Assembly (NCBI GenBank): GCA_963281255.1
Contig: OY725501.1
Coordinates: 3,883,674 to 3,947,673 of the forward strand
Direction: 5' to 3'
From: Aphrocallistes beatrix
Taxonomy: Eukaryota; Porifera; Hexactinellida; Sceptrulophora; Aphrocallistidae
DNA length: 64,000 nucleotides
The notes below the pieces were generated by a model that ran no database searches, was not told the origin of the DNA, and worked only from the letters and a program-made list of their open reading frames with translations. Every line of letters starts with the position of its first letter. Position 1 is the stretch's first letter. A program made the translations under genes and the position numbers. Positions 1 to 64,000 of this stretch are shown here, in pieces.

Positions 1-230
1 TGATGCAACTATCATCAAAAAATGATGACACATCACTCTGTTATGATATCATCATTACCCATCAAAATTTTAAAAATTGACAAATTTGGTGATTTTTCGT
101 GCAATATCGATTATAACAGTAAGGCAGACGTATTTAGAGATGGTATCTCCCATATAATTAATCAATGGTGACCACAGGCGGACACAAAGTGTCCGCCAGC
201 CGCGCAACACAAGTAAGGGAAGCGCGCTTG
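1..230 (+). repeat. Dispersed repeat family R1, partial copy
   Basis: Matches 18330-18575 and 20028-20215. It shares the block from gatgcaactatcatcaaaaa through the cgcgcttg end. It lies in a gene A intron; sequence related to the other a-b introns resumes near 231. Confidence 0.75.
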
Positions 231-471
231 TTAGTATCTATAGGACAAAGATTTGCACGTTGGTTTGACCTTTGATAATTTTCAAACCTTTTCTCGTATT
301 AACAGCTCTAGTGTCTAAATATAAGTATTTTTGTTATATTCTATAAAACAAGCGAATTTGTAATTGTTAATTCAACATTAGAAGGGCACTTAATCATATC
401 CATAGTCTGATTTCGCAGGCAAAGCTAGCGTACATATCTCTATTGGTGAAAGTCAATTCAAATCTATTTAG

Positions 472-738
472 TTTTTGTGCCTGATTTCAACTTGATCGAT
501 GATCGTAACTACACGATTGGAATAGACAGAGAAGAAGTGTTTCTATTCTGCAACAGTTCCAACAGTTCCATCTCATTAACTGACATAAAGTGGAGAGTGA
601 CAGGAAATAATAGAACATTCCCAAACCCACTAATCCCACACAGCAATATGTTGTTACAGAGTGGTACCAGCTATAATATTCAGTGTGTCGATATCAAAAC
701 TAACTCCATCATACTCAATACTCAATATACTGTACAAG
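472..738 (+). CDS. Gene A Ig exon, type b1
   Basis: Type b Ig domain with Cys in LFCNSS, Trp in IKWRV and Cys in NIQCVD. It is one codon longer than its sisters because of a doubled Asp (LIDDRNYT). It ends VQ plus one base, before gtaagc. Confidence 0.85.
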
Positions 739-3700
739 GTAAGCAATTAGTATTAGTGTAGTATTTGTATTAAAATCATTTGAGTTACTTTTGACTGAAC
801 AAGACCGAATTATTTCATAACTGGAATAAGACCGAATTATCAAGATTGGAAACAATCGAATAATATGTACGTATCGCTGAAAAATAAGTGACTAACAAGT
901 TAAATGTACAGACTGGGGGAAAATTTGTCGCCAGACAATTCATCGCATGGACACTTCGTCGCACGAATATTTCGTGCACAAACATTAGTCACTGGAGAAT
1001 GATTAGCGGAACTTTCGTCACTGAGATTTTCGTCCTCACAAAGTCCTCATTTTCACTCTTTTATCACATAAAACATATTCCACTCCAAAAGCCTCAACTC
1101 CGTTCCTTACATACTGGTACCAGTATATTTAATCTCTAATAAGGCGAAATTCCCGTGAAATAGAGATGGAAATCCCCTACAGTGTTTAAAGGATTAATTG
1201 TCCGTCAACGAAATATACATTTTGTTCGAAGTCGATTTCACAGGGAAATTGTTAAGATATTTCACACAAATCACCTTAGAATCTCCTCCGTATCTGAACA
1301 AACCAAAGAATGCCTTTAATCAAGTCTGTATTCTGTATTTCACAAAGGAAACACTATTCTTCCTACAGACGCAAATTGACAATTCGGCCTTTTTCCAGTG
1401 TTGAAATCGTTCGGCCTTATTCCATTTTTTCTTCAGAAAATATGATTGAAATAATCTTACCCTAATTACAGTCAGTCTTTTACACGGAATTGCAATATAT
1501 AGAGTAATCAGCAGGCTAATAATAAATTTTAGTTCTTCTCTTTTTAATTCCTTCGCAGGTCCTCCACTAATTATATTGAATGATGGAGTCATCCAATCAT
1601 TCTCTCTGCTACCTCCTAACATGAACTCAGCTTCTGTCACTGTTCTGGCACAGAATGTGGTTCTGAGTACTAATCTAGCTGGGAGATGGCAGAGACCTGA
1701 TAGCAGCTCTGTAGCATCCAACACTCTTACCTTCTCAACTTTCTATGTCACTCAGGGAGGAGTGTACAAGTTCTATGTTGACAATTGGGATGGACAACAG
1801 ACACTAGCTATTCAATTGGATATCATTGTAATAGGTATACACAAGTCATTATTTTAAATTTTATGAAAATTATTTTATCTTAAACGACTAATATTTGTAG
1901 ACAATCGTTTATTCGGAGAATTTGATACCATGAGCTACGGTGAAATTCCCAACAATCACATTCTCTCTCAGAACACAACTCTATACTGCATCACAGAGAG
2001 CAGCACTCCTTGGAGTTTTGTAGATCTAGCTGGTATCAGAACAGTTCTTAACACTACAGTTGATGCTAATACAGGAATCAGCATTCTAGCTGTAACCACT
2101 GATAATCCAGGCTACTACTCGTGTGAGGTTGCTAGAACAGGATTTTATGAAACATACACTGCTGGAGTGTTTGATCTCACAAATTACACAAGTAAGTGTT
2201 GGAAATTATTTCGCTTGGGATCCTAATCATTTGCCGTGCGTCCTTCTGCTTGTTCCTAGAATGTCAATTGGTTCAGATTGCACCAAAGATGAATGATGTA
2301 TTAGTATTTATATGACAGAGATTTGCACTTTAGTGAAACCTTTGATAAACTTTCATACCTTTCTCATACTAACAGCCCGAGTGTATAAAATATAAGTATT
2401 GTTTTCAAAGTTTTATTCTATAAAAGCAGGGAATTATTATAGTTAAATTAACATTGGAAAGGCACTTGATAGTACATAGAGTTTGATAGCGAATGGAAAA
2501 ACTAGTCTACACATCTCTATTGCTGAAATTCGATTCAAATCTATTCTTTTAGTGTTTGTACCTGATTTCAATTTGATCGATCGAACCTACACCATTGGAA
2601 TAGACAGAGAGGATATATTTCTCTTCTGCAACAGTTCCAACAGTTCCATCTCATTAACTGACATAAAGTGGAGAGTGACAGGAAATAATAGAACATTTCC
2701 AAACCCTCTGATTCCACACAGCAATATGTTGTTACAGAGTGGTACCAGCTATAACATTCAGTGTGTCGATATCAGAACAAACTCCAACATACTCAGTACT
2801 CAGTATAGTGTGCAAGGTATGCAATTAGTATTAGTGTAATAACTGTATTTAAAATCATTTGAGTTACTTTTAACTGAACAAGACCGAATTATTTCATAAC
2901 TGGAATAAGACCGAATTATCAAAATTGGAAACAGTCGAATAATATGTACGTAATGCTTGAATAAATAAGTGACTGACAAGTTACATATACAGACTGGCGG
3001 AGAATTCGTTGCATGGAAATTAATCTAAGACACTTCGTCGCACTTTTTAAACAAACATTAGTCACTGGACAACGGGTAGCGGAACTTTCGTCACTGGGAT
3101 TTTCGTCACATGAAATTTTCGTCTTCCAAATACCACTTTTGCATGACTCACACTAGTACTAGTTTATTTAGCCTCTAACGAGGTAAAATTCCCGTGAAAT
3201 AGAGATGAAAATCCCGCGACAGTGTTTAGAGGATTAATTGTCCGTCAACGAAATATACATTTCGTTCGAAGTCGCATTAACAGGGAAATTGCTAAAGTAT
3301 TTCGCATCAGATAACCTTAGGATCTCCCCTGTATCCGAACAAACCAAAGAATGCCTCTAATCGAACCTGCATTCTTTATTTCACAAAGTTGAAACTATTC
3401 TTCCTCGAGACGCAAATTGACAATTCGGCCTTATTCTACTTTTCCTTTACAAAATATGATTGAAATAACTTCACCCTAATTACAGTTGCAAAGTAACTTT
3501 TACTCAGAATTACAATAGATTTAACAGTGTGCACGCTAATAATAAATTCTTATTCTTCTTCTTTTAATTACTTCGCAGGTCCTCCATTAATTTTATTGAA
3601 TAACGGATCCATCCAATCATTTGCTCTCCTACCTCCCAACATGAACTCAGCTTCTGTCACTGTTCTGACACAGAATGTAGTTCTGAGTACTAATCTAGCT

Positions 3701-6700
3701 GGGAGATGGCAGAGACCTGATAACAGCTCTGTAGCATCCAACACTCTTACCTTCTCAACTTTCTATGTCACTCAGGGAGGAGTGTACAAGTTCTATGTTG
3801 ACAATTGGGATGGACAACAGACACTAGCTATTCAATTGGATATCATTGTAATAGGTATGCACAGGTCATTATTTTGAAATTTTATGAAAATTATTTTATC
3901 TTAAACGACTAATATTTGTAGACAATCGTTTATTCGGAAGATACGATACTATGAACTACAGTGAAATTCCCAACAATCACATTCTCTCTCAGAACACAAC
4001 TCTATACTGCATCACAGAGAGCAGCACTCCTTGGAGTTATGTAGATCTAGCTGGTATCAGAACAGTTCTTAACACTACAGTTGATGCTAATACAGGAATC
4101 AGCATTCTAGCTGTAACCACTGATAATCCAGGCTACTACTCGTGTGAGGTTGCTAGAACAGGATTTTATGAAACATACACTGCTGGAGTGTTTGATCTCA
4201 CAAATTACACTGGTAAGTGTTGGACATTATTTCGCTTGGGATCCTAATCATGAGCTGTGCGTCCTTCTGCTTGTTCCTAGAATATCAATTGGTTCAGATT
4301 GCACCAAAGATGAATGATGTATTAGTATTTATATAACAGAGATTTACACTTTAGTGAAACCTTTGATAAACTTTCATACCTTTCTCGTACTAACAGCCCG
4401 AGTGTATAAAATATAAGTATTGTTTTTCAAAGTTTTATTCAATAAAAGCAGGGAATTATTATGGTTAAATTAACATTGGAAGGGCACTTGATAGTGCATA
4501 GAGTTCGATAGCGAATGGAAAAACTAGTCTACACATCTCTATTGCTGAAATTCGATTCAAATCTATTCTTTTAGTGTTTGTACCTGATTTCAATTTGATC
4601 GATCGCACCTACACCATTGGAATAGACAGAGAGGATATATTTCTCTTCTGCAACAGTTCCAACAGTTCCATCTCATTAACTGACATAAAGTGGAGAGTGA
4701 CAGGAAATAATAGAACATTCCCAAACCCACTAATCCCACACAGCAATATGTTGTTACAGAGTGGTACCAGCTATAACATTCAGTGTGTCGATATCAGAAC
4801 TAACTCCATCATACTCAGTACTCAGTATAGTGTACAAGGTAAGCAATTAGTATTCGTGTAGCATTTGAGTAAATGATTTGGGTTACTTTTGAAGTGTTGA
4901 ATTAATAAGATCAAACTGTCTATCCGGATTAAGGCTGAATTATCAAAGTTTGAAACAGACGAATACGCGTAATATGTACGTAATACTGGAATAAACAAGT
5001 GACTAACGAATTAAATATACATTTTCTTTGAAGCCGCCTTAACAAAGAAATTGTTGAAATATTCCGCATCATAACCCCTTAGAATCTCCCCTGTATTTGA
5101 AAGAAATAAGGAATGCCTCTAATCGAGCTTACAATCAAAATTTCACAAAAGAAACACTATTCATTCTCTAGATCCAAATTGATAATTTTGCTTATTCGAT
5201 TTTTCCCTTTTGAAAATATGATTGAAATAATCTTACTCTAAATGCAGTCACAAAGTATCTCTTACTCAGAATTGCAGTAGACTAAGCAATGAGTACGCTA
5301 ATAATGAATTCTAATTCTTCTCTTTTTAATTTTCCTCTCAGGTTCTCCCTTAATTTCATTGAATGATGGATCTACCCAATCATTTTCTCTCCTACCTCCT
5401 ACAATGAATTCAGCTTTTGTCACTGTTCTGACACAGAATGTAGTTCTGAATACTAATCTAGCTGGGAGATGGCAGAGACCAGATAACAGCTCTGTAGCAT
5501 CCAACACTCTTACATTCTCAACTTTCTATGTCACTCAGGGAGGAATGTACAAGTTCTTCGTTGACAATTGGGATGGAAAACAGACCCTAGCTATTCAATT
5601 GGATATCATTGTAATAGGTATGATATCTAGAAGATGCGTTCACAACATTCATTTGTAAATAAAAATATTTTCAATTTGATTTTGTCTGTAGTTGATCATG
5701 CTTTTGGCGTACTTAACAGTTCAGTCTACACGAGGCTTTTGAACAATCAGATACAATTCAAGAGCACAACTCTATACTGCATCTCAGAGACTAACCTTCC
5801 TTGGAGTTATGTGGATCTATCTGGAAACAGAACAGTTCTTAACACTACAGTTGATGTCAATACGAGTATCAGCACTCTATCAGTAACCACTGACAATCCA
5901 GGCTACTACTCGTGTCAGGCCATTATTGCTAATGTCAGTGAGACATTCAACATTGGAATATTAGACTTAACCAACTATACAGGTTTGTGTATTTCTATGA
6001 CATTCACTATCTAATCATGATGATGCAGTTGTATGATTGTGCTTCAAATCCTAGAGTTTACCCCCAGTGATAATACTATTGAGTCTACATACACGATTGG
6101 AATAGACAGAGAGGAAGTGTTTCTATTCTGCAACAGTTCCAACAGTTCCATCCCATTAACTGACATAAAGTGGAGAGTGACAGGAAATAATAGAACATTC
6201 CCAAACCCACTATTTCCACACAGCAATATGTTGTTACAGAGTGGTACCAGCTATAACATTCAGTGTTTGGATATCAGTACTAACTCCATTATACTCAGTA
6301 CTCAGTATAGTGTGCAAGGTATGCGATTATTATCATTATTAAAAATCATTTAGTTGCCTTTGAAGAGTTCACTGAATAAGACCGAATTATCAAAATTAGG
6401 AACAGTTCAATAATATGAGCGTAAATTTGAATAAACAAGTGATCAACAAATTACATATAGTATATTTGTTTAAAGACTCAAAAACACGGAAATTGGTAAA
6501 AATATTCACACCAAACCCATTAGAATCTCCTCCGTATCCGGACAAATCAAAGAATATCTCGAATCGAGCCTGCATTATTTATTTCGCAAAGTAAACACAA
6601 TTCTTCCTCAACATTCAAATTAATAAAAGTGTTGAAATAAATCGGCACTATTCCACCTTTCGCTTTTGAAAATATATTTACAATAATATTATCCTAATTA

Positions 6701-9700
6701 TAGTCGCAAAGTGTCTATTACTCAGAATTACAATAGATTTATCAATGAGTATGCTAATAATAAATTCTAATTCTTCTTTAATTACAGGTTCTCCATTGAT
6801 TTTGTTGAATAACGGATCTATCCAATCATTTTCTCTCCTACCTCCTAACATGAACTCAGCTTATGTCACTGTTCTGACACAGAATGTAGTTCTGAGTACT
6901 AATCTAGCTGGGAGATGGCAGAGACCTGATAACAGCTCTGTAGCATCCAACACTCTTACCTTCTCAACTTTCTATGTCACTCAGGGAGGAGTGTACAAGT
7001 TCTATGTTGACAATTGGGATGGACAACAAACACTAGCTATCCAATTGGATGTCATTGTAATAGGTATGCACAAACATTAGTTTTGAAAATTTATGAAGAC
7101 TATTTTAGCTTAAACGACAATCTTTGTAGTAAATCGTTTATTCGGAGAATTTGATACTATGAACTACAGTGAAATTCCCAACAATTACATTATCTCACAA
7201 AACACAACTCTATACTGCATCACAGAAATCAGCACTCCTTGGAGTTTTGTAGATCTAGCTGGAAACAGAACAGTTCTTAACACTACAGTTGATGCTAATA
7301 CAGGAATCAGCATTCTAGCTGTAACCACTGATAATCCAGGCTACTACTCGTGTGAGGTTGCTAGAACAGGATTCTATGAAGCATACACTGCTGGAGTTTT
7401 TGATCTCACAAATTTCTCAGGTAAGTGTTGGAATTTATTTCGTCTGGGTTCTGTAATCATGCCATTATGAATAGTGTGTGAAGCTCGTGTGCCCTTCTGC
7501 CTTTTCCTAGAAAATCTATTGGTGCAAATTGTACCAAAAATAGATGATGCAATAGTATTTATATGACAAAGAATTGAACCTTGGTTTAACCTTTGATAAT
7601 TTTGAAACTTTTTCTCGTATTAACAGCTCGAGTGTATAAAATCTAAGTATTTTTTTCAGAGTTATATTCTATAAAATAAGCGAAATTGTAATTGTTAAAT
7701 CAACATTAGAAGGGCACTTAATCATATGCATAGTCTGATAGCACAGGCAAAGCTAGCGTACATATCTCTATTGGTGGAGTTCAATTCAAATGTATTTAGT
7801 TTTTGTGCCTGATTTCAACTTGATCGATCGTAACTACACGATTGGAATAGACAGAGAAGAAGTGTTTCTATTCTGCAACAGTTCCAACAGTTCCATCTCA
7901 TTAACTGACATAAAGTGGAGAGTGACAGGAAATGATAGGACATTCCCAAACCCACTAATCCCACACACCAATATGTTGTTACAGAGTGGTACCAGCTATA
8001 ACATTCAGTGTGTCGATATCAGAACTAACTCCATCATACTCAGTACTCAATATACTGTACAAGGTAAGCCTTTGCTATCTGTATTCAAATCAATTCAGTT
8101 ACTTTTGAAGGTTTGACTGAATAATACCGAATTATCAAAAATTAGAAACAGTAATAATATGAACGTAATATTTGAATAAACAAGTGACTCACAAATTTAA
8201 TTCATATTTTGTTTGAAGCTGCCTTAATTGGGAAATTGTTAAAATATATCACATCAAACCAGTTATAATCTCTTCCGTATCCAAACATACCAAAGAATGC
8301 CTCTGATCAAGCCTGCATTCTGTATTTCACAAAGTAAACACCATTCTTCCTCTAGATCCAATTTGATAATTCGGCATTATTCCACTTTTCCCTTTTGAAA
8401 ATATAATTGCAATAATCTTACCCTAAATACAGTCACACAGTATCTATTCCTCAGAACTACAAAATAGTTAGCAAAGGGTACGCTAATAATAAATTCTAAT
8501 TTTTCTCCTTTTAATTATTTCGCAGGTCCTCCATTAATTTCATTGAATGATGAAATTAACCCAATCCAATCATTTTCTCTCCTACCTCCTAACATGAATT
8601 CAGCTTCTATCACTGTTCTGACACAGAATGTAGTTCTGAGTACTAATCTAGCTGGGAGATGGCAGAGACCTGATAACAGCTCTGTAGCATCCAACACTCT
8701 TACCTTCTCAACTTTCTATGTCACTCAGGGAGGAGTGTACAAGTTCTATGTTGACAATTGGGATGGACAACAGACACTAGCTATCCAATTCAATATCACT
8801 GTAACAGGTAAGTTCATTTGACTTCGCATAATGCTATGAAACTTAAGATTGTGCCTCTCTGAGTACTATCTTTTCTAGTTGACTATCCATTTGGAAGAAA
8901 AATCAATGCAACAACCTTCGTGTATGATCACCTCCAGGACAATCAGATTCTATCTGAAGACACAACTCTATACTGTATTACAGAGAAGAGCACTCCTTGG
9001 AGTTATGTAGATCTAGCTGGAAACAAGATGGGTCTCAATAACACAATGGATGATAGCACAGGAATCGGAACTCTAGCAATAACAATTGATAATCCAGGCT
9101 ATTACTCATGTCAAGTCACGCTTAGCGGATTGAATGGCATCTTCAAAGCTGGAATATTCAAATTTACGAATTATACCGGTAAGCATGAAATTAGGTCATG
9201 ACACTATTTACTATTTGTTAGTGAGAAACTGTTCTATATTTAAGAAGTTATAATCCCTAGTATATAACTCTGCTGACCAAAATGCAACAGATCGCAGCTA
9301 TACCATTGGAATTGACAGAGAGGAAATTATTCTATTCTGTAACAGTTCCAACAGTTCATTCTCATTAACTGACATAAAGTGGAGAGTGACAGGAAATAAT
9401 AGAACATTCCCAAACCCACTAATTCCACACAGCAATATGTTGATACAGAGTGGTACCAGCTATAACATTCAGTGTGTCGATATCAGAACTAACTCCATCA
9501 TACTCAGTACTCAGTATAGTGTGCAAGGTAATCCAATAATATAATAAGATCTTTTGATTACTTTTGAAAATATGATTGCAATAATCATACCCAGATTAGA
9601 TTTAGGAAGCATCTTTTACTCGGAATTGCAATAGATTAAGCAATCAGCACGCTAATAATAAACTTAAATTTTTCTTTTAATTTGTTCACAGGTCATCCAT

Positions 9701-12700
9701 TAATTTCATTGAATAACGGATCTATCCAATCATTTTCTCTCCTACCTCCTAACATAAACTCAGCTTCTGTCACTGTTCTGACACAGAATATAGTTCTGAG
9801 TACTAATCTAGCTGGGAGATGGCAGAGACCTGATAACAGCTCTGTAGCATCCAACACTCTTACCTTCTCAACTTTCTATGTCACTCATGGAGGACTGTAC
9901 AAGTTCTATGTTAACAATTGGGATGGAGAACAGAGACTAACTATCCAATTGGATATCATTGTAATAGGTATGATATCTAGAAGATGCATTCACAACATTC
10001 ATTTTTAAATAAAAATCTTTTCAATTTGATTTTGTCTGTAGTTGATCATGCTTTTGGGTCACTTAACAGTACAGTCTACACGAGGCTTTTGAACAATCAG
10101 ATTCAATTCAGGAGCACAACTCTATACTGCATCACAGAGACTGACCTTCCTTGGAGCTATGTTGATCTCGCTGGAAACGAAACAGTTCTTAACACTACAG
10201 TTAATGTCACTACGAGTATCAGCACTCTATCAGTAACCACTGACAATCCAGGCTACTACTCGTGTCAAGCCATTATTGCTAGTGTCAGTGAAATATTCGA
10301 CATTGGAATATTAGACTTAACCAACTACACAGGTTTGTGTATTTCGTATGACATTCACTGCCTAATCATGATGATGTATTTGTATGATTGTGCTCCAAAT
10401 TTTAGAATTTAGTCCCAGTGATAATACAATTGAGGCTACATACACGATTGGAATAGACAGAGAGGAAATATTTCTATTCTGCAACAGTTCCAACGGTTCC
10501 ATCTCATTAACTGACATAAAGTGGAGAGTGACAGGAAATAATAGAACATTCCTAAACCCACTAATCCCACACAGCAATATGTTGTTACAGAGTGGTACCA
10601 GCTATAACATTCAGTGCGTCGATATCAGAACTAACTCCATCATACTTAATACTCAATATACTGTACAAGGTAATCCATTAGTATAAAGAACATTTTGATT
10701 ACTTTTGAAAATATGATTGCAATAATCTTACCCCAATTGCAGTCAGGAGGTATCTTTTACTCGGAATTGCAGTAGATTAAGCAATCAGCCCGCTAATAAT
10801 AAATTTTAATTCTTCTCCTTTTAATTACTTCTCAGGTTCTCCCTTAATTTCATTGAATAATGGATCTATCCAATCATTTTCTCTCCTACCTCCTAACATG
10901 AACTCAGCTTCTATCACCGTTCTGACACAGAATGTAGTTCTGAGTACTAATCTAGCTGGGAGATGGCAGAGACCTGATAATAGCTCTGTAGCATCCAACA
11001 CTCTTACCTTCTCAACTTTCTATGTCACTCAGGGAGGAGTGTATAAGTTCTTTGTTGACAATTGGGATGGACAGCAGACACTAGCTATTCAATTGAATAT
11101 CGCTGTAATAGGTAAGTACAGTCGACTTCGCATAATGGTGCAAAACTTAAGATTGTGCCTCTATGAGTATTACCTTTTCTAGTTGACTATCCATTTGGGA
11201 GAAAAATCAATGCAACAACCTTCGTGTATGATCACCTCCGGGACAATCAGATTCTATCTGAAGACACAACTCTATACTGTATTACAGATAACAGCAATCC
11301 TTGGAGTTATGTAGATATAACTGGGAGCAAGACAGATCTCAGTAACACAGTAGATGATAGTTCAGGGATCAGTTTTTTATCAGCGGCCACTGATAATCCA
11401 GGCTATTACTCATGTCAAGTCACGCTTAGCGGGATGAATGGCATCTTCAGAGCTGGAATATTCAATTTTATGAATTATACCGGTAAGCATGAAATTAGAT
11501 AATGATCCTATTTGCTATTTGTTAGTGAGAAACTGAGTTCTTTATTCAAGAATTTATAATCTCTAGTATATAACTCTGCTGACCAAAATGCAACAGATCG
11601 CAGCTATACCATTGGAATAGACAGAGAGGAAATAATTATATTCTGCAACAGTTCCAACAATTCAATTCCATTAACTGACATAAAGTGGAGAGTGACAGGA
11701 AATGATAGAACACTCCCAAACCCTCTGATCCCACACAGTAATATGTTGTTACAGAGTGGTACCAGCTATAACATTCAGTGTATCGATATTGGAGCAGACA
11801 CTACCATACTCCATACACAATATACTGTACAAGGTAAACAATTTGTAATATTTATACAAACAACTAATTCACAGGTTGAAATATATTTTGTCAATATCTT
11901 GATATAATTACAGTCTGGATTTCTCGCTAAATTTAGGTAAGTAAATTGGAGGACGAATGATCGTCTGAATACAGTGAATGTTTGTTTAAATTCTTCTACA
12001 TTAACTGATCTAGTATTTTGATGAAAATCATATACTTTGACAATAATTATACATACCGTATTGCTTCGAATAAGCGCCCGGGCGCTTATTTATTTCGTGC
12101 ACCCTTTAGACCCGGCGCTTGTTCAAACCGGCGCTTATTCAAGCCCCGGCGCTTATTTATTTCATTCGCTATTTTGACCCGGCGCTCTTTTTTTGTTTAC
12201 TACATTGGCTGGCACTTTTATTTTTGCCACAACTGAGAATGTTAGTTCTATTAAAAAAAGGATAATGTAATGTTTCAAAAAGCACTTGTATCTATGCCAC
12301 TACTGAGAATACTAGTTTGATCAGAGAACTAAAATGCCCCGGCGCTTATTCGAGCCCCGGCGCTTATTCAAGCCCCGGCGCTTATTTATTTCGCTCACCC
12401 TTTAGACCCGGCGCTTATTCAGGGAAATACGGTACTCGCACTACTTGTATTACGCCTAGATTGATTATTAAACTTTTTTAACTTCCTTCGAGGTTTAAAA
12501 CAGTCCCTCTTATTGAAGATTATTTCTTCCAGGTCCTCCCATAATAACACTGAACAACGGATCTATCCAATCATTTTCTCTCCTACCTCCTAACATGAAC
12601 TCAGCTTCTGTCACTGTTCTGACACAGAATGTAGTTCTGAGTACTAATCTAGCTGGGAGATGGCAGAGACCTGATAACAGCTCTGTAGCATCCAACACTC

Positions 12701-17794: not shown

Positions 17795-17814
17795 ATATGC
17801 ATACTACGTTTGCA

Positions 17815-51300: not shown

Positions 51301-51430
51301 ATCAGTAAAACAATCTAATAAACAAAACAATCTAAAATCAATACAAATAAATTCACACAAACTTATTTCTCACAGTTTTGATTAGTTTTTCAAGAAGACA
51401 CACTAAGTAACAGCCAATTAGCTTACACGT

Positions 51431-52185
51431 TTATTTTAAAGGATTTTCTTTTGAGAAAGTCTCTCCAATACCCACATAAGAATTTTGCGTCGTCTCAACT
51501 ATGCTCTCCTTGGGTGTCACGTCTATATCCATATATATAGAATCGGATTCGAGTTGGTTGGCGTGTTCATTAGCTTCATACAACTCAAGATCAGCACTTG
51601 CTTGATTAGCATGTGCTTGCAGGGTCTGCACAGTTTTCTGATCATCAACTCTATCTTCTCTTTCCTTGGACTTCCTACAGTAGCAAAATACAACAGAGAG
51701 AATAATGATGAATAGAGTGAAGAGAAGGATGTATATTATTGATACAACTACCACTGTGTAAGCTATCTCAGAAGTAAACTGAGAGTTTGAGGATATAGGG
51801 AGTTCGGTTGTCATTGGAGTTAGTGATGTATTTGTGATCGGTGGTAAGGTGGTTGTGGTTGATGTTACCTCAGTTGTCAATGGAGATGGACAATTCGGTA
51901 TCGTGATCAGATGGAATGTTTGAAGATAAAAGGTTTGTATCAGTGAATACTCTAGATTAACTTCTATTCTGATTGGATATTCTACATTTGGTAGTAGTCC
52001 AGTTATGTTGTAAAATAGAGAAGTTGTGATCCCAGCCAATACTTCTACTCCAGCAGTACTGTAGTACACTGATAATGTCTCGTCGGAGTTTGCTGACTGA
52101 TTATAGAGCAGAATCCAGCTGACGAGTATTGAAGTAGGACTAGATGTCTCTGTCTTTATGCTGGTGATACTTTGATCATATAAAC
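51431..52185 (-). CDS. Gene E FN3, stalk, TM and tail exon
   Basis: FN3-like domain, Ser/Thr stalk (TTEVTSTTTTLPPITNTS), TM helix and acidic tail with LYEANEHAN, SIYMDI and NSYVGI, ending at 51431. 251 codons after phase 1 entry. Confidence 0.83.
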
Positions 52186-55100
52186 CTGAAGAAGAGTGGC
52201 AACTTTTTAATTAAAAAAACTTTTTTTCGATGAATCTTAGGAGATTGACTGATGACTATACAATATTGAAAACAAATCATTAGAGATCATGGGCATAGGG
52301 TTTACCAATAATTTTTCATAGGCTATTATCTTCAATTGATCAAATTACAATTTGCCCGTAAAGGCCCTAAAAATCTTGACTAATAGCCCCCTGGAGACAA
52401 TGTGATTATAATGTCATTGGTGCATTAAGTTGGCAAGCTCAAGAAAGAAAACCTGACACCAGATCAGATACAAAATATTCAGATTAAAATTATTGACATT
52501 ACTGACCTTCCAATGCGATGTTAATCTGAATAGCTAGTGTTTGTTGCCCATCCCAATTGTCAACATAGAACTTGTACACTCCTCCCTGAACGACATAGAA
52601 AGTTGAGAAGGTAAGAGTGTTGGATGCTACAGAGCTGTTATCAGGTCTCTGCCATCTCCCAGCTAGATTAGTACTCAAAACTACATTCTGTGTCCGTACA
52701 GTGACAGAAGCTGAGTTCATGTTAGGAGGTAAGAGAGAAAATGATTGGATAGATCCACTGTTCAGTGTTATCATAGGAGGACCTGAGAAAAGATATATTT
52801 AGCGGCGATTAGTTAGATGCACTGAGTTTTGTCCAATTCCTATCAAACAATTATATTAAACTTCGGCTGTGATATTAAGATCCCGAAGTTCCATTGGTCA
52901 GCACCAAATCAGATTTCAAGTTTAGAGAGTGATTATAACTAGCTATATGTTAGAGTAAGGTCAAATCTCATATTCCTGGATTCTGATTAGATACCATACT
53001 TACCAACACTCCTGGGATCCCTAGATTATCTAGGGAAATGAATTAATTGAGTAATTTTATGTTCCTCATTATTTAGCAAGTCTTCAGGGATCCTGGAAAT
53101 TTTCCTGGACTCACGAATTTCGAACGCGTAAGATAGCATTATATACGATGTACCTTTCTTTAAATACAGTGGTGTTCGCTTAATAGCAAGTCGATTTTAG
53201 CTCGAAATTTGCTTGCTAATAAGCGAACTTGCTAATAGAGAAACGAAATTAACATAATAAGCACGCTTGAGACCTGAAAATGACTTGCTAATAGACGAAT
53301 ATTACTATTAGAGCAATTGCTAATAACCAAACACCACAGTAGTTTACTTGTCCTTTTCGAAATCTTTAATTACATATATTCGGCCTTTATTTAAAATCCA
53401 GGAAATTCCCTGGATATCCTGGGATTTCCCTGGATCACGAAATTCGAAATTTAATCTGTCTATTTATTCATGCTAATTTTGTCATTAAAATTAAAAATAT
53501 AATAACATCCAGGGATTTAACATGGAATCCAGGGATTCCAATCCCAAAATCCAGGGACATTTTCAAGAGGTGTTGGTAAGTATGAGATATTACGATTTGA
53601 GCAGACGGACGTTACATGCCTCTATATATAAACTAGGAGCTGCACTAGCACAAAAAAAATACCTTGCACAGTGTATTGAGTACTGAGTATGATGAAGTTA
53701 GTTCTGATATCGACACACTGAATGTTATAGCTGGTACCACTCTGTAACAGCATATTGCTGTGTGGGATCAGAGGGTTTGGGAATGTTCCATTATTTCCTG
53801 TTACTCTCCACTTTATGTCAGTTAATGAGATGGAACTGTTGGAACTGTTACAGAATAGAAACACTTCCTCTCTGTCTATTCCAATCGTGTAGACACGATT
53901 CTCTGTATTACCACCAGGGATAAATACTAGATAAATAGAAATATTAAAATAGTTCCAATCCATGAGTTTAAACGTAGCTTCAGTCAAGACAATAAGACGA
54001 GTTAAGTTCTGACTAATCAATGAATGTGAATTTTCTTCTGACGAAATTTGATAGAAATAACTGACATAGTATCTCCACGGCACTCCCAACCAAAAATTGC
54101 TAATTCCCCCTGTGGTTAGATGCTATTTTAACTTACATGTAAAGCTTGGATTATTAAAAATACCAACAGTATATGTTTCGTCAAGGCCTCCACTCTGAAT
54201 AACTTGACATGAATAATAGCCTGGATTATCAGTGGTCACTGATAGAGTAGTGAGCCCTATAGCAGCATTAATAACTGTAGTGTTAAGAACTGTTCTGATT
54301 CCAGTTAGATCTACATAGCTCCAAGGAGTGCTGTTCTCTGTGATGCAGTATAGAGTTGTGTTCTGAGAGAAAATGTGATTGGTTGGTAGTTCTTCGGTGT
54401 AGATTACATTGTTGATTCTCCCAAAGGCACAAACTAGAGGAATATATGCAGATAAATATTTATTTAAATATAGTACATACCACTTCACTCACCACTTAAT
54501 AAACTGCAATAATAACAAAGGAGATTAGAATTGCAGGGCAGGTCATTCCAGGTAATTGGATTTAAATTAACACAGTTTTCATCTCCGAATGTATTATCGG
54601 GTTGATTACTAATCCAGTTCCTATAAGAGCTGTTGATACCATCGCTCCATACAAATGTTCCTTCTGTTTCAATGTCATTAAGTCCAATCCAACAACCTCC
54701 AGGTTCACCAGTATTTCTAATATAATCCAGTGCTGCATTTTCACCAGCATTAGCTATGCTAGCTAGATCTCCTCCCCATGACTGACAATTAACTCCAGCA
54801 TCTGCCCAATTGATTCCAGAATGAGAGAAGTAACTGAAACACTTGTTTTCATTCGTAATCAGATTGCATCCACTGCTAGGGACTAAAAATAGAATGGACA
54901 GACATATCATCACGTCTAGTTAGTAAATATAAATAGTTTGTAGATATTCATTAACAACAAACCTTACAATTTTGCATCAATTTACGGTTATTTAGTATCC
55001 GCAGCCGCAATTGATATCTAATAAAATATGCATCAACCAAGTATTGATCTATTTTCACGGGAATTTCCTAAACTTATATTTCTATTTAATTAAAATCAAT

Positions 55101-56565
55101 TGTTGTATGTGTTTTTTGTGTTTGTCCAGACGTCTGGAACAACTGGCAAGGTTTAGAAATGTTGTTTTGGTGTACAAGAAGAATCTATATGCGCTGAAAC
55201 ATTTTCACCCAGAAAATGGCACTTTTATATTTGACTAATCAGTGTCGGGTATTTTAAGCAATAGGATGTGTTCTTTTGAGAGTATATGAAACCTGAATAC
55301 AAACATTTTCAAGTGTGGTTATGGGAAGATAAACAATATTTATAGAATATATTAATAAGATGTTCTAATATTAATTTATGTGATGAAGATATTCACTCAC
55401 CATTTAATCCTGGCAATAACATTTCCGCTGTGTAAGTTAAATTCTCTCCATTCCGAGTGACTTGGCAAGAGTAAATACCTGGATTATCATTGGTTAACTC
55501 CAGAAAACTAACTCCAGTAGTAGCACTCGTTGCACTAATGGGAAAGGATCTGATTCCATCTAGATCTACATAACTCCAAGTAACCTGTGGAGTGTTCCTA
55601 TTCTCTGTGACACAGTATAGAGTTGTGTTTTGTGAGAGAATCGTGTTATTGTTCAGTTCTTCAAAGGTAGAAGCGTCTACAATTCTCCCAAATACGTTTA
55701 CTAAAAGAAATTTCGTAAGACACAAAAATAAATATTAGCATGTTCGTAGATTTTTAATTGTATTGTGGATTTGTATCCTTGCTCTATACAGTGCTGCGCT
55801 CCGACAATTTAAGAACCAGGCAGGACTCTCATTGATATTTTCAGGACGGTCGAAAGCGGTTCAGATCGTACGATTAATCTTGAAGCGTCCGAACCAACCT
55901 TTATTCTGTGCGTCTATTGAAAAATCTTATCAGATGAACTAATTTCCATCAATCACAAATTCCTCATTGATCTATCATAATACTACCGGGAATTTACATT
56001 ATTATCAAATATTTAGGCACACTCACCATTTAGTAAACTGCAATAATGACAAAACATAACTGCAGGGTAGGTCATTCCAGGTGAAAATTGGATATATATT
56101 ACCACAGTCTTCATTCCCTCCGTCATTATTTGGTTCACCACTAGCCCAGTTCCTATAAGAGCTGTTACTGCCGTCACTCCACACAAATGTTCCTTCTGTT
56201 CCAATGTCATTAAGTCCAATCCAACAACGTCCAGATTCACCAGTATTTCTAATGGAATCCACTGCTGCATTTTCACCAGCATTAGCTATGCTAGCTAGAT
56301 CTCCTCCCCATGACTGACAATTAACTCTAGCATCAGTCCAACTGATTCCAGAATTAATGAAGTAAGTGAAACACTTATTTTCATTCGTGATCAGATCGCA
56401 TCCACTGCTAGGAACTAAAAATAGAATAGTTAATTCATTATTACTTTACAACTATGTATACTAAACTATGGTAAAGTGTGTAGAACATGAAATATTGAAT
56501 ATACCTTGAGTGAATGCCGTAGTAGTTAGAGAAAATATTACTAATACATTCAATATCAGATCCAT
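51431..56565 (-). CDS. Gene E: lectin/Ig/FN3 single-pass receptor with ITIM-like tail
   Basis: Minus-strand exons: signal peptide 56565-56505, CTLD 56414-56027 (frameshifted), Ig 55700-55401, CTLD 54882-54493, Ig a 54433-54137, Ig b 53926-53663, Ig c 52782-52507 and FN3-TM-tail 52185-51431. If the damaged first CTLD is left out, the rest joins in frame to 780 codons plus stop. The tail has SIYMDI (51524-51541) and NSYVGI. The promoter and signal peptide match those of gene D in inverted orientation. Probable surface recognition receptor, with inhibitory-type signalling suggested only by motif. Gene B is its closest relative in the window. Confidence 0.75.
52507..52782 (-). CDS. Gene E Ig exon, type c
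   Basis: Cysteine-free cassette (GPPMITLNSGSIQSF, TVRTQNVV, VQGGVYKFYVDNWDG). 92 codons, phase 1-1. TVRTQN is shared with gene F, not A. Confidence 0.84.
52995..53584. mobile_element. 590-bp TIR element in a gene E intron
   Basis: Inverted ends catacttaccaacac and gtgttggtaagtatg. Flanks agatac/agatat suggest a 6-bp target duplication. The duplicated intron at about 50820 (ttagatactacaatttgagc) is the empty site. Confidence 0.78.
53167..53339. mobile_element. Tigger/pogo-like MITE nested in the 590-bp element
   Basis: 173 bp, inverted ends cagtggtgttcgcttaatag and ctaataaccaaacaccacag, with TA on both sides. The interior repeats ttgctaata. Confidence 0.72.
53663..53926 (-). CDS. Gene E Ig exon, type b
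   Basis: FIPGGNTENRVYTIGIDREE, LFCNSS, IKWRV and NIQC. 88 codons, phase 1-1. The core is almost identical to gene A b exons. Confidence 0.83.
54137..54433 (-). CDS. Gene E Ig exon, type a
   Basis: CAFGRINNVIYTEELPTNHI, TLYCITENSTPWSYVD and DNPGYYSCQV. 99 codons, phase 1-1, donor gtaagt. Confidence 0.83.
54493..54882 (-). CDS. Gene E C-type lectin exon 2
   Basis: 130-codon intact CTLD (SGCNLITNENKCFSYF, WGGDLASIANAG, WIGLNDIETEG, QPDNTFGDENC, TWNDLPC). QPD and WND are present. Phase 1-1. Confidence 0.86.
55401..55700 (-). CDS. Gene E Ig exon 1
   Basis: VFGRIVDASTFEELNNNTI, TLYCVTENRNTPQVTWSYVD and DNPGIYSCQV. 100 codons, phase 1-1. Confidence 0.82.
55701..56026. other. Gene E intron between CTLD 1 and Ig 1
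   Basis: 326 bases with no exon, repeat or other structure that I recognise. Confidence 0.5.
56027..56414 (-). pseudogene. Gene E C-type lectin exon 1, frameshifted near its end
   Basis: A CTLD closely matching 38613-38999 (SGCDLITNENKCFTYF, GEPNNDGGNEDC, TWNDLPC). Five bases are lost before the final Cys codons, so the exon is 388 nt and reads LSLLQFTKW then TGA. Its border bases are intact. Confidence 0.78.
56505..56565 (-). CDS. Gene E signal peptide exon
   Basis: MDLILNVLVIFSLTTTAFTQ, the same peptide as gene D, ending in phase 1. The upstream 1.3 kb is the inverted copy of the gene D upstream region. Confidence 0.85.
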
Positions 56566-57871: not shown

Positions 57872-58019
57872 AGTAGTCAGTTTGAAAAACAATAAAGTTT
57901 AGTACATTGAAGTATGTACTTATACATGAAAGTTAGTTAATTTTTCTGAAAAAAAGAGTAACAAAATCAGATTGAGGTGATTCACACACAATTTCCTCCT
58001 CATCTGTTTAAAATGGTCA

Positions 58020-58327
58020 TTAAGTGTCCAATTCAGGCACATCTGCAATGTCAGAGTAAATTTCGTTCGTTTCACTCAGAACACTAGCTGGAGATTGAAA
58101 ATACATTGGATTGGTGTGCACTTCACCCGCCATCTCCACTGAAGATAGGTTCTTGTGGATTGGAACATCTTCCAATTTAGAGCCAGTTATTGCAGTGTTT
58201 TCAAGAACCAAAGTACTTTGAACTTTCTTTCCATGTCCAAAAGTTTTATACACCTCTTTCACATCAGAGTCTACTTCATGGGTGTTTTCTCCAACATTAT
58301 TAGAAGATTCAGTCACTGATTTCAATT
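58020..58327 (-). CDS. Gene F cytoplasmic tail exon
   Basis: Tail with EIYSDIADV, PMYFQS and KEVYKTFGHG, ending TAA. It lacks the NIYEI tyrosine of gene A (reads NTHEVD). Confidence 0.83.
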
Positions 58328-61300
58328 CTAAAGATTAATTTTGAGAAAATAATTTTAAATGTAACTGTAAATATGTATTTACTCATCAATGAATGGGGAA
58401 TTAAATCAATTTTTAATTTATATTTCAGAGATGGATCCGGTCAGATTGGATCGGGTACCTGTCCTGATCCTAACCGACCTATTAACTCTAACTTGTAAGT
58501 TCGAGTGATATACAAGACTCGAAAATAAATAATTTGGATGATCAACACTGGAAATTTTAGTTGTCTTAAATGAAGTTTCTTCAAATGTAATATGGCACTG
58601 TTGTGTGTTTTCTCAAGCTTGTGTGTATAGAATAACTTCGACAAAGATGGTTTATGTATGCTTTAGTCCGGTGTACAGGTGCGAATTGACTGGGCGGGCA
58701 ATCGAACGCGATCGACTCAAATTCGCAAGTTATTCTCAGGACCTATGTGTATTAGGCTGTGACCAGATTATTCGAGGATATAATTTTAATATAATGTATG
58801 TTGATTTCAAATCACTTTATGGGTATCAGCTCTTACCAAGCACACAATTAAAAAACTATTTCTACATCACTGATGTAGTTATACAATACACTGACTGATC
58901 TACAAGTATGTGTTAGTATTGCAAGAAATAACTCACCAATTGGACCACTTTTCATTGGGGATTCCTTAGCGAATTGTCTCTTTGGAGTATTTTTCTTTAA
59001 TCGGCTGCTGGTAATGGGACCCATAGTGGCAGAGCTTGAGGTGTTATGTCCAGGAGTTATTTGTGCATTTGGAACTGTGAATTTCTCCTTTTTCTTGAAA
59101 ACTTCCAACACTTCTTTATTCCTGAGGACAACTACGAGGAGGAAGACTAGCCCCATCAGGCCATTGACGATGATGAAGACCCATTCAAGAACGGAATGCT
59201 GAATTGCAACGTTGAAGATTAGAATCAACCAAGGCAATCCTAGCACAGGCGTTAGCACCAACCCAGTGATCAGTGCGTCCTTAACGATCTTTCGAGCATT
59301 ATCGTTTGTCGCAGAATATTTAGTTTGGATGATTCGAATGATCGCAATTATCAGGAAGATCGTATTAATCAAGATCATGGTCAAAATAGGTGCAATGAAA
59401 GCCCAAATGACGCCTCCTATGACGTTGAGGAAACAATGCCTGCTGACATCCACGTAATAATCTCTTGCAACAGCTATGGTGATTATTGGAATGAGAAGAG
59501 GAAATATCCAACCGAAAAAGATGAGATACCTATATATTTTCCTTGTAGACAATACTCCTAAAAGAGAGAATATTGTTTAATCATTGTATTTTATCTAAAA
59601 TATTATAGAAAGTAAACGTGAATTCCATTGAATATGTATAGTTCTCACTTTTTCAGTTTGGATTAATGTTTGTTAAATTTTGCTGGGGGGGCAATTGAAA
59701 ATCTGGTCGGTACAAGTAAATCTGGGGGTTTTATGTAGAAATTCTAGGGAGCCTGATCCTTTGGTACTATGAGCATGACGCCCGTAGTTGGTAGCGTTAG
59801 AAACTTAATACAAATTCAAAACCAGAAATTATTTACACTCACTTATGACGATCTTGTGCATGATGAGTACTCCAAAGCACAGAGTCCAGGTAAACACTGC
59901 CAGCCATGAGTAGTGGAGTAGAAATGCAATGATCTTACATAGCACAATGTTATATGTACCAACTTGAATACCAAGCATGAACAGTCCAGTGGCGAGAAGC
60001 ATAGATAGACAATAGTTGAAGTAGACAATGTTAGTCTCCACTTTGAAAAATGGTTTTCCTGCTACGATGAATAAGATGAGAGATATTAACAGAGAGATGA
60101 ATGAGATGCCAACGAATACATAACTAATGAGTGAAAGTGCTATTGATTCCTCAGGACTTTTCTCAATTTCGTGAGGAGTAACGAATACTGCGAAACTTGT
60201 GAAGTGGGAAGATATACAGTTTGTGAAATTTTGACTCTTTTGTTCTGTGTCCAGACCGTTACTAACCCAATTTGTTCCATTCAAGAATACACAAGTACTT
60301 AGAGAAGGTTTGCTAGAATAGACATTGAATGAGAGTGTAACCTATAGATGAGAGCAATAAAGTTATATATTAATCGTACATTCTAGTATAATGCTTTAAT
60401 TGGTTTGCAAGAAATGATCAGCTCACCTTTACTTATTTGGAAAGCTAAAAATTATTAAGGAGACAAAATGTGAGCCCAGTAGTAAATTATATTTCTAAAG
60501 ACAGATCAGCGGTTATAATGCTTTCTTCTCAAGGATTTCTTTATCGCAGGGAATATTGATGGTTGACAATGAGAAATTAGATGAGGAAGTATCTCATTTC
60601 TCAAATAATGAATTTTGCCCTAACGATTCGAGAGCAGTCGACGTGCTTTATCTACAAAGCTCTGCATATAATGAACCTAAACAGAAATCTGGAGTGATTC
60701 CTTTTAACGGTAGTTTACTGATTCTAGTTTTGGGGAAACATCATTGCGTATTAAATAACTAATTTTGGTGCAATAAAACTTACATTTTCGGTTAATTCAA
60801 TGATTCCAAACATTCCTTCCAAAGCGATCGTCAGAATATCACTACCTTGAGTGGACTGTCCGAATCCATTTTCATCGTTGGAATCTGATTTGTTACTCAC
60901 AATTCTTTTAGTAATCGAAGTAGCGATCTTGAGAAAGTATGTTGTTAGGATATTAATGTAAATTTTTGACTTTGTTATACAGTAGATTAAGAAAGAGTTC
61001 ATAATCGAGATATTCTTATCACACAGAACTGACTATTTGGATATAACCTGACTTTGCCACTGTTTTAACGATACAAACTATTCTATGATGTATTATTATC
61101 AGAAAACCATTTTTAAAGCTATACTTTCTAGTGAATTGATGAAAATCAACAATGCCAAACTTTGTCAAATAGATATTTGACAATTATTTCCAAGTATCCA
61201 TGGGTTTAGCTTTAAATATCTGGAAATTCAATTAATACGTTAATTCCTGTCCAATCCAAACCCTCGCTATGGTACTGACTTACCGCTAGACTTATTCCAT

Positions 61301-64000
61301 CTGTTGATAGATTAAAAGCAAGATTTATTGGGAGTGTTACCATAACTGAATACTGCACATCTTCAGAGCTTTTCTTTGGGAGAACAATTTCTGCTTTTGT
61401 ATCACTATCATCACCGCTACTGTTGAGAGCAACGTTTTGCACTACAATTGTGATCAATTGTGACTCTACCGTTCTAACAGTGTCAACTTCTCTATTCTCC
61501 GTTAAGTCCTCGCTGAGTCTCTGTGAAAACCTCTCCAGTGTATTTAACGTTACTGCCAATGCTGTAGATATGGTTGAAATGGTTTGTTCTGATTGTTGCT
61601 AGAGAAACGAATTACAAGTAACATAGATAGAAACAGTGAATTCATAGTAAATTCGATGGATAGTTTTCAGCATTTTACCAAAAAAACTATAGTCAAAACC
61701 CAGTTTTACTAAGCCGTTAATTTGTAGAACAATCATGGAATTGTGATGTCATCATCACCTTTTTTTATAATGATTAAGAACAAAAATGTTGAAATATCTG
61801 TCTATAGGCGATTGTAGAATAGAACTTAAAAATTAATTGATATAAATAGTGTTAATAACGCGCTTGGCGGCGAGGTGTTTTGTAGCGTCTTTTCCTGTAT
61901 AAGCCATTTTGGGCGGGGAAGCCATACAAGTTTGGGGGTCTGACTATAAATAGAAAAATCACTTAGCCAACCGTAGGTTAAGTACCTGCATTATATTCAT
62001 CAGTTCTGATTCTTGCAGGAATGTACTTCCATTCACGATACTACTCAGTAGCCCAGTGATCTTTTCAGCTGTCTCGCTACTGAATGCCCCGTTCGTCTTA
62101 TTAATAATCAATTCTGCCGTTATTGAAGCTTCCACTAATATCACACTCTTATTTTCACTCGTGATTTCACCATCACTGTTAGCAGCATCAATGACAACCT
62201 TAGCAAGATCTGCAGTTTGTCCAGATCTCTCATCAGAAATGGATTCTACACTATTCAACTCATCGCTGATTTCTTCTAAATTTTCCTGAATGTTTTCAAG
62301 GGTTAATTCGAGTTCATAAGTGACAGATGCAACATCTCTTCCCGCTACATTCTCTGCAACGCAATAGAATATTTTCTCTCCATCGTTTGCTAGATCTGTG
62401 ATGTTGACTTGAAGTATTGGTGAATCGATGAATTTCGAAATGAAATCTCTTGTCCAGTATATGTCTGGTAGCGGTACTCCAGTAGCAACGCATTCAATAC
62501 TGCCAATAGCAACGCCAGTTCCATTTAATATTATCGTTAAGTCTGTGTCTGGGAATGTGATCTGGGGAGCTACGTTCGTGATAGTTGTTGTTGTACTGGG
62601 ATGTGTTGTTTCATATGATCCTAGAAATAAATGAAATTGGGAACGAAATTGGGAAAGAATCAGAAACTAGACAATAAAAAGTTTTTAAAAGGAGTGAAAA
62701 TTCATGATGCAAATGACAATAGTCATTAGGCCTATCAGTGACCCCTTTCTCTAAAATATTAACATCTTGTGGCCAAATTTCATCTAACAACAAATTGGGC
62801 GCTTTATTATAGTAAAGTAAATTTAATATCGATATTCAGGATCAACTACAAGATCAACCTGAATTCTAATTGCGTCATAAGAAGTCAACTGTACTTACCT
62901 AGTATTGCTGAGATATTCAATTGAATAGCTAGTGTCTGTTCTCCATCCCAATTTTCAACATAGAACTTATACACTCCTCCCTGAGAGACATAGAAAGTTG
63001 AGAAGGTAAGAGTGTTGGATGCTACAGAACTGTTATCAGGTCTCTGCCATCTCCCAGCTAGATTAGTACTCAGAACTACATTCTGTGTCCGTACAGTGAC
63101 AGAAGCTGAGTTCATGTCAGGAGGGAGGAGAGAATAGTTCCTTGAAATTACATTTTCGAATTGGATAATTGGAGGACCTTGAAATTAAAGTTTCATTAAA
63201 TCTCTGCCTAAAATATATTTTTTGAATTAATACCAAATTGAATTTATTCTCCATTTTGCTATAACATACACAATGTATGTTTATTTCAGTACGCAATTCA
63301 TCTACTATAGCAGCAAAAAATATTCTGGTCAAATCTTACAAAGAAGACTCTGTATTCTACTAACAAGAAATGTTTCCAACTTACAAGAGCTTACCTTGTA
63401 CACTATATTGAGTACAGAGTATGATGGAGTTAGTTCTGATATCGACACACTGAATGTTATAGCTGGTACCACTCTGTAACAACATATTGCTGTGTGGGAT
63501 TAGTGGGTTTGGGAATGTCCTATCATTTCCTGTCACTCTCCACTTTATGTCAGTTAATGAGATGGAACTGTTGGAACTGTTGCAGAATAGAAATATCTCC
63601 TCTCTGTCTATTCCAATGGTGTAGGTGCGATTTATTACATCCTCAATAGTACTGAAGACTAGAAAAAGTACAAATATGTAAAGAAGAACCTTCTCATTAG
63701 AATATACGGTATGTAATTGTTGCTTGATGGTAGACAGTCTTCTCAATAGAATGTGCCACTTGTCTCATTGGCTTGATTTTCTATCGATGCAAATACGAAC
63801 TCTTTAATTTGTTGGATGAAATTAAGCCTCAACTTACATGTGTAATTTGTAGTAATAAGGAGTCCGGTCGTTCTTGTTTCAGTTACACCATCACTTCTAC
63901 TAATCTGACATGAGTAGTAGCCTGGACTATCCGTGGTTATTGACAATACACTAAATCCTGTAATGACATTTGTGCTGGTGTTAAGAGTTGATGTGTCTCC
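58020..64000 (-). CDS. Gene F: Ig adhesion GPCR of the A/D type (5' partial)
   Basis: Minus-strand exons in the window: Ig a 64000-63838 (cut by the edge), Ig b 63658-63395, Ig c 63177-62899, Ig plus GAIN 62620-61986, GAIN 61598-61284, GAIN 60927-60784, GPS and TM1-3 60341-59843, TM4-7 59557-58937, and tail 58327-58020. Phases and lengths match genes A and D throughout and the frame is open. GPS ends CISSHFTSFAV. Earlier exons lie to the right of the window. No damage was seen in the visible exons. Confidence 0.85.
58328..58936 (-). other. Gene F intron before the tail exon
   Basis: Longer than the gene A equivalent by several hundred bases. Holds a non-homologous stretch (about 58430-58740) with no recognised element. 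Confidence 0.45.
58937..59557 (-). CDS. Gene F TM4-TM7
   Basis: 207-codon exon (YLIFFGWIFPLLIPIIT to VVVLRNKEVLEVFKKKEKF), phase 1-1, equivalent to 16118-16738. Confidence 0.88.
59843..60341 (-). CDS. Gene F GPS and TM1-TM3
   Basis: 499-nt exon with STCVFLNGTNW, FTNCISSHFTSFAV and three helices. The donor reads a then gtgagt where A and D have g. Confidence 0.87.
60784..60927 (-). CDS. Gene F GAIN exon 3
   Basis: 48 codons (IATSITKRIVSNKSD to GIIELTEN), phase 0-0. Confidence 0.82.
61284..61598 (-). CDS. Gene F GAIN exon 2
   Basis: 105 codons, phase 0-0, equivalent to 14327-14641 (VALNSSGDDSD, VTLPINLAF). Confidence 0.82.
61986..62620 (-). CDS. Gene F membrane-proximal Ig plus start of GAIN
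   Basis: 635-nt exon matching genes A and D (ECVATGVPLPDIYW, IFYCVAENVAG). In the following intron, 61858-61955 is an extra GC-richer stretch absent from A and D. Confidence 0.85.
62899..63177 (-). CDS. Gene F Ig exon, type c
   Basis: Cysteine-free cassette with a new first strand (GPPIIQFENVISRNYSLLPP) and the homogenised core from MNSASVTV on. 93 codons, phase 1-1. Confidence 0.84.
63395..63658 (-). CDS. Gene F Ig exon, type b
   Basis: FSTIEDVINRTYTIGIDREE, LFCNSS, IKWRV and NIQC. 88 codons, phase 1-1. Confidence 0.83.
63838..64000 (-). CDS. Gene F Ig exon, type a (cut by window edge)
   Basis: The last part of a type a Ig domain (VLSITTDSPGYYSCQISRSD), ending in phase 1 before gtaagt. 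The start lies beyond 64000. Confidence 0.78.

Follow-up and report, generated by a model that had tools for sequence, protein, structure and literature searches.

The 64,000-nt stretch of the Aphrocallistes beatrix genome analysed here (the window; C15:3883674-3947673, in an assembly that totals 100.5 Mb over 28 contigs) carries four adhesion G protein-coupled receptor (GPCR) genes (A, C, D, F) and two single-pass receptor genes (B, E) built from common lectin and immunoglobulin (Ig)-like exon cassettes, which confirms the gene inventory of a preliminary description drawn from the same letters. The cluster does not end with these six genes, as that description had it. It spans window positions of about -13,200 to +107,600, roughly twice the window, with further genes G-J beyond it; coordinates without a contig prefix are window positions, and negative values lie 5′ of the window. 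On balance, we favor the explanation that these genes constitute a cluster of modular recognition receptors at the cell surface, in which an exon pool has been copied in front of different membrane anchors to yield paired outputs. Ectodomain sharing across outputs is demonstrated at the DNA level, and from the sequence it is reasonable to infer a recognition system as such.

Four exon classes recur in the ectodomains: CTL, IgB, IgA, and IgC. The CTL cassette is a C-type lectin (Pfam Lectin_C, 74 bits, above cut-off). The IgB cassette is a canonical Ig domain with the C-W-Y-C pattern, its scanned exon giving only sub-threshold Pfam matches. IgA is cysteine-free and weakly Ig-like in structure, while IgC has two cysteines and a Trp, with weak support for an Ig-type fold. 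As a correction to the earlier label of "Ig exons", the scanned IgA and IgC exons have no Pfam Ig match. Runs of A-B-C triplets are found in gene A and elsewhere, and similar cassettes are also present on C1, C6, and C12.

Ectodomain blocks common to different outputs

DNA self-comparison reveals long blocks common to genes with different ends. Gene F, which has a seven-transmembrane (7TM) end, and the single-pass gene J match over eight of eight colinear consecutive exons (CTL-IgB-CTL-IgB-CTLx-CTLy-IgB-IgC), with all AG/GT ends kept and no stops. Identity is 95.4% for the exons and 94.3% for the introns. A 1.3 kb block common to F and G is similarly conserved (96.4% in exons, 95.6% in introns). 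A and H, and likewise C and J, have triplet blocks in common (exon identity 91-92%, intron identity 82-88%). The signal-exon peptides of D (7TM) and E (single-pass) are identical, and those of F (7TM) and H (single-pass) are 95% alike; a second signal-exon peptide is 89% alike between C (7TM) and G (single-pass). Paired receptors are recognized by near-identical ectodomains on different ends within one cluster, and this pattern is found here for blocks, not for whole ectodomains.

Exon trees were built by a quick method from intact cluster exons only, and changes of output label were compared with 300 label shuffles. The IgB tree (40 exons) has 11 changes vs a shuffled mean of 13.3, with 13% of shuffles as low. 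The corresponding values are 9 vs 9.45 (49% as low) for IgC (28 exons) and 5 vs 4.6 (87% as low) for CTL (13 exons). For three of the four cassette classes, labels are about as mixed as when shuffled. Because F matches J and G at 94-96% with introns included, signal exons are common to both kinds of gene, and labels are mixed, the sequence indicates recent movement between output types.

One type of transmembrane (TM)-tail (type-1) closes the single-pass genes B, E, G, H, and I. An FN3 match accompanies it in B, E, G, and I; none was found in gene H, though its tail is of the same type. Gene J closes with a TM segment and a tail unrelated to type-1, with a phase-1 acceptor (by eye). A single hydrophobic stretch precedes each single-pass tail, again by eye. 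Motifs resembling the immunoreceptor tyrosine-based inhibitory motif (ITIM; [SIVLT]xYxx[ILV]) occur in six of the seven type-1 tails, a set that comprises two tails from E and includes K (C15:685k), and NPxY occurs in four of the seven. SH2, protein tyrosine phosphatase (PTP), and G-alpha domains are present in the genome. On the plus strand at C8:160251-163182, two SH2 matches are followed by PTP matches, which we take to be the order of an SHP-type phosphatase.

A receptor tyrosine phosphatase is probably the third output of the cassette pool. Diverged A-B-C cassettes lie 5′ of receptor PTP domains on the same strand at C15:65-276 kb, C10:824-830 kb, and C11:1074-1080 kb. Fifty-five diverged IgA copies (<60% identity) were typed; these are clustered and non-independent. 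Among the PTP matches listed, 50 of the 55 are located ≤12 kb 5′ of a same-strand PTP domain, compared with 20 of 55 in the opposite-strand control (C11:1082077 included). The gene end at C15:115328-117682, an open reading frame of 785 aa, consists of an FN3-like segment, a TM (by eye), NPAY, and two PTP stretches (Y_phosphatase 389.4 bits; fn3 18.9 bits, under the cut-off of 25). The first PTP stretch contains HCSAGVGRTG, and in the second K replaces R. An IgA cassette upstream of this end is 52% identical to a window IgA cassette. From order and strand, we infer that cassettes and phosphatase are spliced together.

In the explanation we favor, the phase 1-1 lectin and Ig-like exons would constitute a common pool, and duplication, inversion, and probably non-allelic conversion would copy blocks of it in front of different membrane anchors. 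Four kinds of anchor are present: an adhesion GPCR end split over several exons (A, D, F), one in a single exon (C), a single-pass end with FN3 and tyrosine motifs (B, E, G, I, with the same tail in H), and the other single-pass end (J). The ectodomains may bind ligands on other cells or microbes. In the GPCR genes, recognition would drive G-protein signaling via a tethered agonist, and in the single-pass genes the tyrosine motifs could recruit SH2 or PTB proteins, such that near-identical front ends on two outputs could pair or balance the signals. A bolder version, which we advance tentatively and regard as rather unlikely, is a genome-encoded mix-and-match recognition system in glass sponges: block copying would keep one exchangeable cassette pool circulating and supply it to three or more signaling machines (G-protein, tyrosine-motif, and tyrosine phosphatase), and a single recognition specificity could thereby receive opposing or graded outputs in self/non-self decisions.

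Gene structures and exon phases

The features of the window and its edges are as follows. For the 3′ gene models, that of D was used whole and that of A for the first exons only.

1..17294 in window, + strand: gene A, adhesion GPCR with split GAIN-7TM; its start lies upstream of the window
-8148, + strand: gene A signal-peptide exon, outside the window
472-12811, + strand: gene A cassettes in the window, 23 in number (8 IgC, 8 IgA, 7 IgB)
13420-14054, + strand: gene A GAINa with Ig-like domain
14327-14641 and 15001-15144, + strand: gene A GAINb and GAINc
15416-15914 and about 16118-16738, + strand: gene A 7TMa and 7TMb
About 16968-17294, + strand: gene A tail with NPMY and EIYSDI
19249..24417, + strand: gene B, single-pass; CTL, IgB, CTL, IgB, IgC, IgA, IgB, FN3-TM-tail with SLYASI
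26186..35724, + strand: gene C, adhesion GPCR; signal exon 26186, then CTL, IgB, IgA, IgB, IgC, IgA, IgB, IgC, IgA, IgB
32408-32995, + strand: gene C HRM, above the Pfam cut-off, with a sub-threshold TSP3 match too
33745-35724, + strand: gene C GAIN-7TM in one exon
35948..36938, + strand: degenerate CTL (in-frame TAA) and frameshifted IgB fragment
37174..38267, no strand assigned: mosaic fragment with 7TM-tail-like, TM-tail-like, and IgB-like pieces
38463..48249, + strand: gene D, adhesion GPCR with split GAIN-7TM; signal exon 38463
38613-38999 and 41849-42010, + strand: gene D CTL and second, truncated CTL, followed by IgB, IgC, IgA
44166-45840, + strand: gene D GAINa-c
46137-46635 and 46832-47455, + strand: gene D 7TMa and 7TMb
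About 47926-48249, + strand: gene D tail with NPMY and EIYSDI
49271..56565, − strand: gene E, single-pass; signal exon 56565, then CTL, IgB, CTL, IgB, IgC, IgA, and FN3-TM-tail at 51434-52210
49271-50569, − strand: gene E second end, truncated IgA and FN3-TM-tail
57950..64000 in window, − strand: gene F, adhesion GPCR with split GAIN-7TM; runs past the right edge to 68,245
58944-59561 and 59835-60338, − strand: gene F 7TMb and 7TMa, with a tail carrying NPMY and EIYSDI
62013-62624, − strand: gene F GAINa; GAINb stands between 7TMa and GAINa
62899-63177, 63395-63658, and 63838-64140, − strand: gene F IgA, IgC, and IgB, the last spanning the window edge
Beyond the window, − strand: gene F upstream part, CTLy, CTLx, IgB, CTL, IgB, CTL, signal exon 68245

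The 7TM regions are supported by Pfam 7tm_2 in genes C (115.8 bits) and D (108.8 bits; cut-off 20.6), and those of A and F are assigned by homology and PF00002 matches. In the Pfam scan of C and D, GAIN is listed for C (34.4 bits; cut-off 26.5) and not for D, and GPS for D (23.5 bits; cut-off 22.5) and not for C. By eye, H-F-T (A, D) or H-S-T (C) stands where such a motif is expected, a putative site of autoproteolysis and of the tethered agonist. Gene A totals 35 cassettes (2 CTL and 11 each of IgA, IgB, and IgC), 12 of which are upstream of the window. Between the first and second lectins of gene D, positions 39349-40354 hold 44 tandem copies of a 23-base unit (93% matches).

Genes G, H, I, and J lie outside the window. 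The gene J ectodomain comprises 21 cassettes and 2142 aa with no stops, and that of gene G is open over 17 assembled cassettes, the assembly excluding its CTLx and a partial IgB at 80149. Signal exons are present for E, G, H, and J, and the signal-exon search yielded none convincing for B or I. Both gene E tails carry SIYMDI. The two FN3-TM-tail ends of this gene (49271-52210) are nearly identical (block 92.7%) and are possibly alternative 3′ ends. A CTL-IgB-CTL-IgB-IgC-IgA-IgB series at -13226 to -9028 resembles the front end of gene B; no membrane anchor was matched between this series and the gene A signal exon. The long open frame at L032:6048-9998, between receptor genes, contains what by eye resembles a zinc knuckle and looks retroelement-like.

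The cluster and the other loci read gave 184 cassette matches; 29 matches covering less than 70% of the query were dropped, leaving 155 for the reading of exon phases. With a strict pick, which takes the best-scoring splice sites, 121 of the 155 cassettes are 1-1 (40 of 53 in the window). With a tolerant pick, which accepts a phase-1 site scoring no more than 2 units below the best, a phase-1 acceptor fits every one of the 155, and 145 are fully 1-1 without a stop; in the window, these number 48 of 53. Inspection by eye shows that many of the strict-pick exceptions come from another AG lying a few bases into the exon. The preliminary statement that the exons are nearly all phase 1-1 is borne out by the window count under the tolerant pick; random phases would be expected to give 1-1 in one ninth. 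Among the five 7TM anchor exons, 7TMb alone is 1-1; the other four have different phases (GAINa 1-0, GAINb 0-0, GAINc 0-0, 7TMa 0-1). Phase symmetry alone is ordinary, because mobile extracellular modules of animals usually belong to class 1-1 (PMC8001218).

Contig C28 (18 kb) is the mitochondrial one, with atp9, AGA at positions where cox1 usually has Ser, TGA in use and a TGG count of 0 in cox1, and the gene order atp6-cox3-nad2-nad5-nad1. Its cox3 lies in two frames, as does the frameshifted cox3 that has been reported for Aphrocallistes vastus. The identity of the genes, their order in the block, and the Ser positions were judged by eye from the open reading frames and known sequences. On this footing, C28 agrees with hexactinellid mtDNA, whose traits include atp9, AGR = Ser, rare TGG, and the atp6-cox3-nad2-nad5-nad1 block (PMC2267718), and we take the host to be a glass sponge. 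A bilaterian host, suggested at first by AGA read as Ser in cox1, was set aside on account of atp9 and the hexactinellid gene block.

Selection, lesions, and rival explanations

Several observations weigh against a working system of paired recognition receptors. The ratio of nonsynonymous to synonymous differences per site (pN/pS) for the closest ectodomains is 0.50 for F-J and 0.45 for G-J (six of eight exons, the other two being without a full homologue in G), with no sign of overall diversifying selection. Pooled over close pairs, which are non-independent, pN/pS is 0.49 for IgA, 0.49 for IgB, 0.47 for IgC, and 0.68 for CTL. Frame lesions are found in all of B, E, and H: in gene B, 5 nt are deleted from the IgA exon (22740-23013) and the donor of the second CTL is misplaced, in phase 0; in gene E, the first lectin exon lacks 8 nt; and gene H has several indels. 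To these is added the truncated lectin of D. Together with the degenerate fragments at 35948-36938 and 37174-38267, these lesions are what plain birth-and-death would leave. The IgA tree (31 exons) clusters by output, with 6 changes vs 10.6 and 0 of 300 shuffles as low; the large cassette array within gene A may contribute to this. Finally, the ITIM-like motif is absent from the G tail and, by eye, from the J tail, and the per-tail chance of such a motif in shuffled type-1 tails is 2.5-28.5%, which makes each occurrence individually weak. Of the two outputs proposed earlier behind one set of modules, the set itself and at least two outputs stand, and the ITIM-type reading has motif-level support in six tails and none in G and J.

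The lesions in B, E, and H keep birth-and-death duplication a serious rival. In this account, a tandem adhesion-receptor family turns over in the ordinary way, its GPCRs are functional, and the single-pass copies decay as by-products that play no paired role. The degenerate fragments and the F-J introns, which are nearly as similar as the exons, fit such a history. The G and J ectodomains, open over all their assembled cassettes, do not, nor do the single-pass tail motifs that recur between copies, and we consider the account unlikely, if far from negligible. More credible, though still short of even, is a developmental or tissue-adhesion set (cell sorting, syncytium formation, matrix binding) as opposed to an immune or allorecognition one, a role compatible with the explanation we favor. 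Sponges ordinarily possess adhesion GPCRs whose ectodomains contain Ig and fn3 (PMC4302439), and coding constraint remains, as pN/pS is about 0.5; copy turnover and pseudogenes speak against such a set. The two outermost lectins of F and J also do so, as a hint. They hold 47.4 of 82.4 nonsynonymous changes in 621 of 2106 sites (the other six exons, 35 in 1485), yet the excess is no stronger than a hint because synonymous change is raised there too (18.6 of 45.6 changes in 153 of 582 sites; the other six exons, 27 in 429).

We find it improbable that the symmetric cassettes serve mainly for alternative splicing, by which the 35 cassettes of gene A would give many in-frame ectodomain isoforms. 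Cassettes of class 1-1 can be skipped without frame loss, and so lesioned exons could be skipped as well, but near-identical arrays would add little sequence diversity in IgA. Least probable is an assembly artefact, in which unmerged haplotypes or a false inversion would make the common blocks. Stretches of 784 and 305 nt within 37174-38267 have 100% identical inverted copies (57109-57892 and 56803-57107), all within a 1,257-nt match of 97.2%; these may reflect recent duplication, conversion, or assembly error. Haplotypes could also differ by about 5%. Nevertheless, the F, G, and J blocks are alike while their flanks, cassette numbers, and anchors differ, and the recurrence of similar cassettes on C1, C6, and C12 also argues against an artefact.

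Related systems and implications

The paired immune receptors KIR, LILR, PIR, and SIRP are clustered, with near-identical ectodomains, different signaling ends, and gene turnover. The sponge cluster resembles them in each of these respects and differs in that one of its ends is a 7TM receptor and in being known from the sequence of one assembly. The nearest structural analogue is Drosophila Cirl, an adhesion GPCR gene with splice forms with and without the 7TM (PMC13197933); there, one gene is spliced, whereas here the products come from separate neighboring genes. Botryllus fuhc fester/FcoR and Hydractinia alr are the nearest functional analogues, being clustered Ig-type receptors with ITIM motifs in both, and the FcoR tails carry YxxI/L/V core motifs (PMC12065747). 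Functional evidence of allorecognition exists for Botryllus, in contrast to the cluster described here, and the available text of that source describes no GPCR output for either locus.

Among sponges, Amphimedon adhesion GPCRs carry Ig, I-set, V-set, fn3, HRM, and SRCR ectodomains (PMC4302439). The present genes resemble that ADGR family in their 7tm_2 with GAIN or GPS, HRM, Ig-type modules, and expansion; unlike in that family, lectin and three-module cassette arrays are here copied almost unchanged into non-GPCR neighbors, and the word "lectin" has no occurrence in the available text of that paper. The phase 1-1 extracellular modules recall Patthy's class 1-1 module shuffling (PMC8001218), a process across animal evolution, whereas the copying here is recent, with introns matching at about 94%. 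The A. vastus genome has tandem clusters including AIG1-domain genes (PMC10282587), work on O. minuta mentions a GPCR survey (PMC10280926), and an adhesion GPCR is up-regulated by microbial patterns in a sponge challenge study (PMC6208332). The words "immunoglobulin" and "lectin" have no occurrence in the available text of a GPCR survey of animals' relatives (PMC12716839). Among the matches listed from titles and abstract starts, with most subscription journals outside the coverage, neither ectodomains shared by neighboring GPCR and single-pass genes nor identified allorecognition receptors of glass sponges were found.

With almost one and the same ectodomain block on 7TM and single-pass ends, such a cluster would be a natural experiment in the coupling of recognition to signaling. 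It would also offer, in a lineage that branched early among animals, a candidate locus whose part in self/non-self decisions could be tested.

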